Position numbers and translations under genes: made by a program
Shown: one piece after another, positions 3,554-53,038 of the stretch
Layout of the letters: the number at the start of each line of letters is the position of its first letter
How positions within the stretch are numbered: the stretch's first letter is position 1
The notes under the pieces: model-generated
The model's input: only the letters and a program-made list of their open reading frames with translations
The model's database searches: none
Told to the model about the DNA's origin: nothing
Source: Methylocystaceae bacterium
Lineage (GTDB): Bacteria > Pseudomonadota > Alphaproteobacteria > Rhodospirillales > Terasakiellaceae
DNA: 64,000 nucleotides
Reading direction: 5' to 3'
Assembly (NCBI GenBank): GCA_013373205.1
Contig: JABXIG010000019.1
Coordinates: forward strand, 62,001-126,000

Positions 3554-3629
<76 letters not shown>

Positions 3630-48538: not shown

Positions 48539-48613
48539 TGGAGCGGGCGAAGAGATTCGAACTCTCGACCTAAACCTTGGCAAGGTTTCGCTCTACCCCT
48601 GAGCTACGCCCGC
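48539..48613 (-). tRNA. tRNA-Gly (anticodon GCC), copy 2
   Basis: The 75-base cloverleaf on the reverse strand has acceptor GCGGGCG, D-arm TAGCTCAGGGGTAGAGC, anticodon loop TTGCCAA (GCC) and T-arm GAGTTCGAATCTC, with encoded CCA. It is identical to the copy at 48648-48722. Confidence 0.97.
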
Positions 48614-48647
48614 ATTGCATCTTAGTGCGTCTATGTGTTTTAGAAGA

Positions 48648-48722
48648 TGGAGCGGGCGAAGAGATTCGAACTCTCGACCTAAACCTTGGCAAGGTTTCGC
48701 TCTACCCCTGAGCTACGCCCGC
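48648..48722 (-). tRNA. tRNA-Gly (anticodon GCC), copy 1
   Basis: Identical 75-base tRNA-Gly, promoter-proximal copy, separated from the other by 34 bases. The two are probably co-transcribed from the promoter at 48790-48817. Confidence 0.97.
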
Positions 48723-51633: not shown

Positions 51634-51692
51634 ATCACTAAATCCTTAAAAGAACTGCGCACTGCACAAAAGTAACTGGACAAACCGCCCTG
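51634..51692 (+). pseudogene. Remnant of the 3' end of a CDF transporter gene
   Basis: This stretch aligns without gaps to 34523-34581, the last 59 bases of the CDF gene, with 51 identities. Its translation, ITKSLKELRTAQK-stop-LDKP, mirrors ITKSLNELRTTQKYLDKQF and contains an internal TAA. Nothing upstream of it resembles the CDF gene. It is therefore a 5'-truncated relic of the gene at 34 kb or of a lost paralogue. Its CTGGACAAA part supplies the apparent -35 box of the asd leader promoter. Confidence 0.75.
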
Positions 51693-51705
51693 TTTTCAGT
51701 ATGTA
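51677..51705 (+). promoter_or_regulatory. Probable sigma70 promoter of the asd leader, overlapped by an inverted repeat
   Basis: TGGACA (51677-51682), a 17-base spacer and TATGTA (51700-51705) predict transcription from about 51712. A perfect 10-bp inverted repeat, CCTGTTTTCA at 51689-51698 and its complement at 51716-51725, brackets the -10 and start site and could bind a repressor. Confidence 0.45.
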
Positions 51706-51739
51706 ATGGCCCTGATGAAAACAGGAGCTACCAGCAATT

Positions 51740-51880
51740 ATGCAAAATGCAGCGCACATCATGTCTAAGACGACAACAACCGCAAAGGTTTTTGCGGCTG
51801 ATGGTGCATGCACGCTTCTCACCGCTACAAAGACAACCAAGACAACAACCAAGACCAAAAGGTTGCTTGCGAGGACTTAA
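51740..51880 (+). CDS. Thr/Lys-rich leader peptide of asd (46 codons)
   Basis: The 46-codon frame (M1 to T46, TAA at 51878-51880) has 14 Thr and 6 Lys codons, clustered as SKTTTTAK (codons 9-16) and ATKTTKTTTKTK (codons 29-40). GGAG lies 12 bases before the ATG, a rather long spacing. A second in-frame ATG at 51761 (codon 8) is possible. It ends 18 bases before a strong terminator, and asd (aspartate semialdehyde dehydrogenase, common to Lys, Thr and Met synthesis) begins 132 bases after its stop. Composition, position and RNA folding fit an attenuation control peptide rather than a functional protein. A conserved small protein is a less likely alternative. Confidence 0.7.
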   Translation: MQNAAHIMSKTTTTAKVFAADGACTLLTATKTTKTTTKTKRLLART

Positions 51881-51939
51881 GTAACGGATCGTATATTCGA
51901 AAAAAGGCCTCGCGGGAAACCGCTTAAGGCCTTTTTTCG
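51850..51939 (+). promoter_or_regulatory. Transcription attenuator of asd (regions 1-4)
   Basis: Three mutually exclusive pairings are visible. 1:2 pairs CAAGACC (51850-51856) with GGT-tg-CTTG (51861-51869). 2:3 pairs 51866-51878 with 51904-51916: 12 of 13 positions pair, two as G-U. 3:4 is the terminator, 51898-51910 with 51927-51939, plus an inner GCGG/CCGC stem, with six T in its 3' arm. A ribosome stalled at the Thr/Lys codons (51827-51859) would mask region 1 and free region 2 for the 2:3 antiterminator. A ribosome at the stop codon would mask region 2 and let the terminator form. Confidence 0.7.
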
Positions 51940-51964
51940 TATCTGCGTTCTAAAAATCGAAAAA

Positions 51965-51989
51965 GGCCTTCTTCGGCAAACCGAAGGCC
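51965..51989 (+). other. Second hairpin just before the asd ribosome site
   Basis: GGCCTT-ctt-CGG pairs with CCG-AAGGCC around a CAAA loop. No T-run follows, so it is not a terminator. It sits 12 bases before the AGGAAG ribosome site of asd. The preceding TCGAAAAAGGCCT duplicates, with one A less, the 5' arm of the attenuator terminator (51897-51910). Confidence 0.5.
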
Positions 51990-52012: not shown

Positions 52013-53038
52013 ATGGGCTATAAAGTCGCAGTCATGGGTGCCACTGGTAATGTGGGACGTGAAATGCTCCAAATCATGGCGGAACGTAATTTTCCCGCTG
52101 ATGAAGTGGTGGCATTGGCGTCACGTCGATCAGTGGGCCGCGAAATCTCTTACGGTGAAAACGAAATCCTGAAAGTTCAGGACCTGGATACGTTCGATTT
52201 CACCGGAACAGATATCGTTCTGTCTTCACCGGGTGGGGCTGTCTCTGCGAAATATTCCCCGCGCGCAGCAGAAGCCGGCGCCGTGGTGATTGATAACACA
52301 TCCCATTTCCGCATGGACCCGGACATTCCGTTGATCGTACCGGAAGTAAACCCAGAAGCCATCGGTGACTACAAGAAAAAAGGCATCATCGCCAACCCGA
52401 ACTGTTCAACCATTCAAATGATGGTGGCTCTAAAACCGTTGCATGAAGAATTCGGCCTTGAACGTGTGATCGTATCGACGTACCAATCCGTTTCTGGCGG
52501 CGGTAAAGAGGCGATGGATGAATTGTTTGAACAGACAAAAGGCATCTTTATGAACAAGCCTGCGTCTGAAAATAAAAATGTTTTCACCAAGCAAATCGCC
52601 TTTAACTGTATCCCGCACATCGATGTGTTCATGGATGACGGCGCGACGAAAGAAGAGTGGAAAATGAAGGTTGAGACTGCAAAAATTCTCGACCCGAAAA
52701 TCAAAGTCCACGCCAACTGCTGTCGTGTTCCGGCCTTTATTGGCCATGCGGAATATATCAACATCGAAACCACAAAACCAATCGATGAAGATCGCGTTCG
52801 TGAGGTCATGGCCGCCCAAGATGGTCTGGTGGTTGTGGATCACCGCGCCGATGAAGGCTATGTGACTCAGGTTGAATGTGCAGGCGAAGATGCGACTTAT
52901 GTGTCGCGCATCCGCAAAGATGACACCGTTGAAAACGGCCTGTCTTTCTGGTGTGTATCTGACAACCTGCGCAAAGGTGCAGCCTTGAACACCGTTCAGA
53001 TCGCCGAAGCGTTGATCAAAGATCACCTGAAAAAATAA
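52013..53038 (+). CDS. asd: Aspartate-semialdehyde dehydrogenase
   Basis: The 341-residue NADPH enzyme reduces aspartyl phosphate to the semialdehyde feeding Lys/diaminopimelate, Thr, Met and Ile synthesis. It has the Rossmann motif GATGNVGREMLQIM, active-site Cys131 in IANPNCSTIQM, and the catalytic region NCCRVPAFIGHAE with the conserved Arg and His. AGGAAG lies 6 bases before the ATG. It is preceded by a Thr/Lys-rich leader frame and attenuator and followed by a terminator, so it is a single-gene unit with its own control. Confidence 0.97.
   Translation: MGYKVAVMGATGNVGREMLQIMAERNFPADEVVALASRRSVGREISYGENEILKVQDLDTFDFTGTDIVLSSPGGAVSAKYSPRAAEAGAVVIDNTSHFRMDPDIPLIVPEVNPEAIGDYKKKGIIANPNCSTIQMMVALKPLHEEFGLERVIVSTYQSVSGGGKEAMDELFEQTKGIFMNKPASENKNVFTKQIAFNCIPHIDVFMDDGATKEEWKMKVETAKILDPKIKVHANCCRVPAFIGHAEYINIETTKPIDEDRVREVMAAQDGLVVVDHRADEGYVTQVECAGEDATYVSRIRKDDTVENGLSFWCVSDNLRKGAALNTVQIAEALIKDHLKK

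Follow-up and report, generated by a model that had tools for sequence, protein, structure and literature searches.

Expression of the threonine operon thrABC in Escherichia coli is set by the thrL attenuator (Rfam Thr_leader), whose leader peptide carries Thr and Ile codons. Aspartate-semialdehyde dehydrogenase (Asd), the product of asd, feeds lysine as well as threonine synthesis. It stands at the branch point of the lysine and threonine/methionine paths, the last step that threonine and lysine share, and a Thr/Lys leader at asd is one testable mechanism by which this common step might be set.

In Sinorhizobium meliloti, a paper from 2023 describes, in the part available, the small ORF SEP5, which lies in the 5' UTR of a gene that is named aspartate dehydrogenase there and which carries six Thr and three Lys codons toward its 3' end (PMC10117765). 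SEP5 was reported to be translated, on the evidence of Ribo-seq and of a tagged fusion detected by Western blot, and the same excerpts suggest it as a possible leader peptide and report its conservation only in Sinorhizobium (PMC10117765). Our literature search, mostly outside subscription journals, turned up a Thr/Lys leader near a gene of this kind only in this partly available paper; asd, threonine and lysine do not occur in the main text of PMC2965389, and a search on aspartokinase feedback by Lys and Thr found nothing on these bacteria. A Thr/Lys leader for asd has already been proposed in print, in this one short Sinorhizobium contribution, as far as the available text of PMC10117765 goes. 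A preliminary description of the locus reported here, made from its sequence alone, had stated that no Thr/Lys attenuator of asd was known to have been described in alphaproteobacteria, a statement that is partly wrong in the light of SEP5.

Here we analyze a stretch of 64,000 nucleotides (the window) in which a Thr/Lys-rich leader ORF, a strong terminator and asd follow one another. Judged from its sequence and that of its relatives, the region probably acts as a ribosome-mediated transcription attenuator that couples asd to the availability of charged tRNA-Thr and tRNA-Lys.

Leader ORF, terminator and asd in the window

The elements of the locus, all on the forward strand, are as follows.

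51677-51705, forward strand: putative promoter-like element, TGGACA-17-TATGTA (sequence)
51723-51727, forward strand: AGGAG, likely ribosome-binding site of the leader ORF (sequence)
51740-51880, forward strand: leader ORF, ATG start, 46 codons, 14 Thr and 6 Lys (coding signature in relatives)
51827-51859, forward strand: Thr/Lys control codons, TKTTKTTTKTK, leader codons 30-40
51838-51850, forward strand: region 1, CAACC at 51846-51850 plus bases upstream, inside the control codons (folds)
51861-51878, forward strand: region 2, in which GGTTG pairs with region 1 and CTTGCGAGGACTT with region 3 (folds and swap test)
51898-51916, forward strand: region 3, 5' arm of the terminator and also partner of region 2 (folds)
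51920-51939, forward strand: region 4, 3' arm of the terminator with T-tract 51932-51937 (fold)
52013-53038, forward strand: asd, aspartate-semialdehyde dehydrogenase, 341 aa (homologues annotated likewise)

The leader peptide is 46 residues long, MQNAAHIMSKTTTTAKVFAADGACTLLTATKTTKTTTKTKRLLART. A recount of the ORF agrees with the 14 Thr and 6 Lys codons given for this 46-codon frame in the preliminary description, and the translation confirms its reading of codons 29-40 as ATKTTKTTTKTK. A promoter consensus scan gave no match at its threshold upstream of the leader. The ACAAA and AGTATG blocks of the promoter-like element are invariant in 6/6 same-genus genomes, all of which also share the column of the leader ATG. 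Early in the ORF, at 51780-51797, lies a hairpin-like sequence, CCGCAAAGGTTTTTGCGG, whose arms CCGCAA/TTGCGG are kept in the same six genomes; this element could be a pause hairpin or could reflect mere coding conservation.

An intrinsic terminator is predicted between the leader and asd. Folding of 51898-51945 pairs 51898-51910 with 51927-51939, exactly as proposed earlier for the 3:4 pairing, and adds an inner stem of four pairs; its energy of -27.1 kcal/mol compares with -9.9 +/- 2.7 for shuffled sequences (z -6.4), none of 200 shuffles being equally stable. The 2:3 antiterminator that had been proposed is likewise recovered when 51856-51916 is folded, with 12 pairs at -16.8 kcal/mol (z -2.3; 5/200 shuffles equally stable). 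It is mutually exclusive with the terminator, and its 5' strand lies at the end of the leader ORF. The 1:2 pairing is weak and not unique in the window, and its previous placement (51850-51856 with 51861-51869) is replaced in the minimum free energy fold by CAACC 51846-51850 with GGUUG 51861-51865. A transcript ending in region 3 is predicted to fold into the 12-pair antiterminator, the ribosome-free full transcript to favor the terminator together with the 1:2 hairpin, and the terminator to persist when region 2 is masked, alternatives that suggest the logic of a ribosome-read attenuator. When the upstream strand is removed, region 2 is predicted to fold on itself.

The 132 bases from the leader stop to asd contain the terminator. 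A second inverted repeat, GGCCTTCTTCGGCAAACCGAAGGCC, occupies 51965-51989, downstream of the terminator and 23 bases short of the asd start; Terasakiella pusilla lacks the 5' half of it. The genome is Terasakiella-like, its Asd protein being 94% identical to the homologue in T. pusilla and 93% to that in T. brassicae. Elsewhere on the minus strand of the window are a tandem tRNA-Gly(gcc) pair (48539-48722) and a tRNA-Thr(cgt) (3554-3629). The same leader on other pathway genes of this genome was considered and rejected, as no Thr/Lys leader was found before lysC, hom, dapA or thrC within at most 450 bases of the first start of the longest ORF; the pathway check consists of these four genes, a second dapA-like locus (L322) having been mis-picked and carrying no information.

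Conservation within the genus

The leader, its Thr/Lys run, the terminator and asd occur in the same order in all five other same-genus genomes (G001-G005), and the pairing core in Terasakiella is GCGAGG or GCGGGG with CCTCGC. In four of the six genomes (G001, G003, G004 and G005) the leader ends before region 2, which lies just past the stop. The window and T. pusilla have TTG in place of that stop codon, which lengthens the leader by five codons and takes it through region 2, so that region 2 falls inside the last leader codons. The earlier claim that region 2 lies within the end of the leader is therefore accurate for these two genomes and fails for the other four, as well as for most other families.

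Comparison of the six genomes also shows a coding signature in the leader frame. Synonymous pairwise codon differences number 93 in the leader frame compared with 38 and 40 in the shifted frames, and the gaps inside the ORF are of one size only, three bases, while gaps of 1, 2 and 3 bases occur after it. The classical excess of changes at third positions over second positions is nevertheless absent, as the six leaders vary in 11, 22 and 23 of 41 columns at codon positions 1, 2 and 3. The mid-section FA.D.ACTL is kept in 6/6 same-genus leaders. A leader from a distant family (L261) reads ...ALAGDLACSP... before its Thr/Lys tail, resembling FAGDVACTL of Terasakiella.

Distribution among asd upstream regions

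The order of leader, terminator and asd is also present in other alphaproteobacterial families. Among 266 distinct asd upstream regions, 43 carry a Thr/Lys tail, defined as at least 8 of the 15 residues before the stop; the same 266 regions gave none when read on the opposite strand and 0, 0, 1, 0 and 0 in five shuffles, and a chance codon run was rejected on these counts. Thr plus Lys ranks first among 190 amino-acid pairs with its 43 loci, the next pair reaching 26.

The order set comprised 100 genomes, with asd found in 98; 90 upstream regions were taken (two from one genome), 2 were too short and 88 were counted. The class set comprised 192 genomes, of which 152 matched at a strict limit, giving 108 upstream regions, 107 of them counted. 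With the limit lowered to 7 of 15 residues, the tail is present in 37/88 order-set and 11/107 class-set regions, and regions below that limit are the majority in both (51/88 and 96/107). By a comparison made by hand, the order-set tails are spread over 11 of the 31 family labels of that set. A draw from the whole phylum (59/70 genomes matched) showed 27 new loci, 14 alphaproteobacterial and 13 from other classes: the tail occurs in 5 of the 14, several of which repeat genomes of the class draw, and in none of the 13, which represent 13 of 41 matching other-class genomes. Methylobacterium, Ruegeria and Sphingomonas (L311, L312 and L315, of six plasmid-collection records) have no Thr/Lys tail. 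On this sequence survey the Thr/Lys leader at asd appears as scattered widely within one class. In many leaderless genomes the frame before asd resembles the end of what we take to be leuB, so asd may be co-transcribed there. In three further loci (L019, L020 and L193) Thr/Lys tails, for example ALTTKTSTKTTGD, lie 386-392 bases before asd together with a terminator, and the GC core is a different one.

Pairings across clades

In most other families region 2 reads GCGGGC(C) just past the stop, region 3 GGCCCGC and region 4 GCGGGCC; L180 and L192, of one genus, have GCGGCC with GGCCGC. Region 1 varies by clade and its partner follows, as in CAAAACC/GGTTTTG, CGAAAAAG/CTTTTTCG, AACCGGC/GCCGGTT and TCGACCA/TGGTCGG. 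In swap tests whose permutations ignore the relatedness of the loci, own partners scored above permuted ones for all three pairings (41 loci): 15.4 vs 14.2 +/- 0.35 for 1:2 (0/5000), 19.6 vs 18.2 +/- 0.39 for 2:3 (3/5000) and 28.0 vs 23.2 +/- 0.49 for 3:4 (0/5000). These 41 loci come from 51; eight, including the same-genus L084, were removed by hand for the want of a clear terminator or for another layout, and the same-genus L003 and L085 were lost to a low terminator-finder score, though the alignment shows their terminators. In a stricter comparison, the share of foreign partners that do as well as the own partner has a median of 0.45 for 1:2, 0.65 for 2:3 and 0.14 for 3:4.

Covarying pairings were sought in an alignment of 37 of 43 loci, from which five same-genus loci and L172 were excluded for their different layout. 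Column covariation is modest for 3:4, where 29/500 shuffles reach the score, and nil for the 2:3 core (403/500 shuffles, 37 sequences); in the six same-genus sequences that of 3:4 is at chance level (171/500). In the 2:3 core 88.8% of cells are paired, compared with 17-49% after sliding, and covariation is uninformative there because the core is nearly invariant. A pattern search for GCGGGCC...GGCCCGC...GCGGGC (150 genomes, 51 matching) was discarded for counts, being unspecific in GC-rich DNA, with control matches also frequent.

Selection by structure

Loci were also picked on structure only, by a 6-base region 3 with exact upstream and downstream complements and a T-rich end, a rule that 32/266 loci pass and same-genus loci fail, so that the latter are absent from the 32. 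Taking the best stop codon within 12 bases, with figures that stand without a shuffle comparison, 29 of the 32 have a stop near region 2 after a tail with at least five Thr plus Lys residues, and 28 with at least six; L145, L159 and L231 have no such tail. Relatives with the RNA structure therefore do keep the Thr/Lys codons, in 29 of 32 cases, and these codons run up to the antiterminator strand.

Loci without a clear terminator

Upstream of a gene annotated as aspartate-semialdehyde dehydrogenase, S. meliloti CP090106.1 carries an ORF that terminates in RKTTAKTTTKTV; from its match to the published description, in the part of PMC10117765 available, we infer that this ORF is SEP5. Unlike in the window, the RNA downstream of it has no clear U-run terminator. 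A kept Thr/Lys tail with at most 3 to 5 T per 8 bases before asd was found in L310, L313, L314, L331, L333, L334, L337 and L261. For three of these loci, which belong to Hyphomicrobiales by record, the positions concerned are as follows.

L310, 885-1006: terminator-poor Thr/Lys leader, S. meliloti / Sinorhizobium
L313, 888-1006: terminator-poor Thr/Lys leader, Rhizobium sp. NLR16a
L314, 886-1006: terminator-poor Thr/Lys leader, Shinella

Past the leader stop, the terminator-poor loci contain C/U-rich sequence that is complementary to the ribosome-binding region of asd, which suggests a translational output, and these loci are possibly translational attenuators. In a swap comparison of seven loci without a clear terminator, this complementarity is above the foreign mean in four (L331, L333, L261 and L327) and the comparison fails for the other three, L310, L313 and L314. 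A tentative reading is that an old alphaproteobacterial Thr and Lys sensor at asd has kept its leader constant while its output was switched, between transcription termination (Rhodospirillales-type genomes) and, in Sinorhizobium, Rhizobium, Shinella and their relatives, occlusion of the ribosome-binding site of asd. We give it clearly less than even weight, a value reduced because the swap comparison fails for precisely the three loci from these named genera.

Discussion

The attenuator proposed here would work as follows. RNA polymerase would transcribe the leader with a ribosome trailing on the leader ORF. With Thr and Lys plentiful, the ribosome would reach the stop codon and cover region 2, allowing 3:4 to form and transcription to terminate at the U-tract. 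With either amino acid short, it would stall on the Thr/Lys codons, occupying region 1, so that region 2 would be available to region 3; formation of the terminator would then be blocked and asd transcribed. With no ribosome, 1:2 and 3:4 would form and transcription would end. We infer translation of the leader in this genome, the stalling of the ribosome and the sign of the response. That the leader senses two amino acids, as first suggested for this locus, gains support from the 29 of 32 structure-picked loci, the coding signature of the leader and the preference for Lys over Asn.

The same features could be produced by an attenuator sensing threonine only, the Lys codons being filler by which the RNA stays rich in A and C and free of structure. 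In the tails of the structure-selected loci Thr indeed outnumbers Lys almost threefold (40% T and 14% K, with 1.6% I and 1.1% M), and some tails have one Lys (L124, L146). Filler of similar composition would, however, also bring in Asn, Gln and His, and the 51 tails hold 128 Lys codons against 3, 3 and 1 of these. The dominant Thr codon is ACC (202/324 Thr codons in the same tails); although AAC is one step from ACC, Lys so far exceeds Asn that it appears to have been favored for itself and not to result merely from the A/C richness of the RNA. As these 51 tails were selected on Thr plus Lys, it is this contrast, and not the level of Lys, that counts as evidence. Together with the established role of Asd in supplying lysine besides threonine, this makes sensing of threonine alone an unlikely explanation.

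Two further readings would dispense with ribosome stalling at Thr and Lys codons. If the terminator were constitutive and the ORF encoded a small protein with its own function, the FA.D.ACTL mid-section kept throughout the genus would find a ready explanation. This reading is nonetheless very improbable, given that the listed peptides outside the genus share little besides the Thr/Lys tail, that the tail ends at region 2 in those 29 of 32 loci, and that conservation of SEP5 is reported only in Sinorhizobium in the available text of PMC10117765. Control of asd by a riboswitch or T-box, with the ORF present by chance, would be in keeping with the lysine riboswitch that controls lysine genes in other bacteria. 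An Rfam scan of the window at gathering score returned three tRNAs only and no leader, riboswitch or T-box family, on which any known Rfam leader was rejected; with a codon bias far above shuffles as well, we regard such control as barely credible.

If the proposed attenuator is correct, an orphan small protein of S. meliloti would join a wider regulatory family, and many species are offered for comparing the same sensor with different outputs. The working principle appears, from sequence, to be the same as that of thrL, with a different gene and amino-acid pair. Like thrL, the window has a short leader, tandem codons for two amino acids, and a terminator with a competing antiterminator. Unlike thrL, which precedes thrABC and reads Thr and Ile, the window leader precedes asd and would read Thr and Lys, and where thrL has the Rfam family Thr_leader, the window matches no Rfam leader family at gathering score. 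It would share with trpL/peTrpL of S. meliloti, as presented in the accessible part of PMC7298713, the character of an alphaproteobacterial ribosome-dependent transcription attenuator, although trpL/peTrpL uses Trp codons and controls trpE (PMC10117765, in part). SEP5 resembles the window leader in being a small Thr/Lys ORF before asd proposed as a leader peptide, and differs in that the available part of its description gives no RNA mechanism (PMC10117765). What is new here is the breadth of the Thr/Lys leader at asd, the anatomy of its 1:2, 2:3 and 3:4 pairings, and the existence of relatives in which the leader is retained but no clear terminator is seen.
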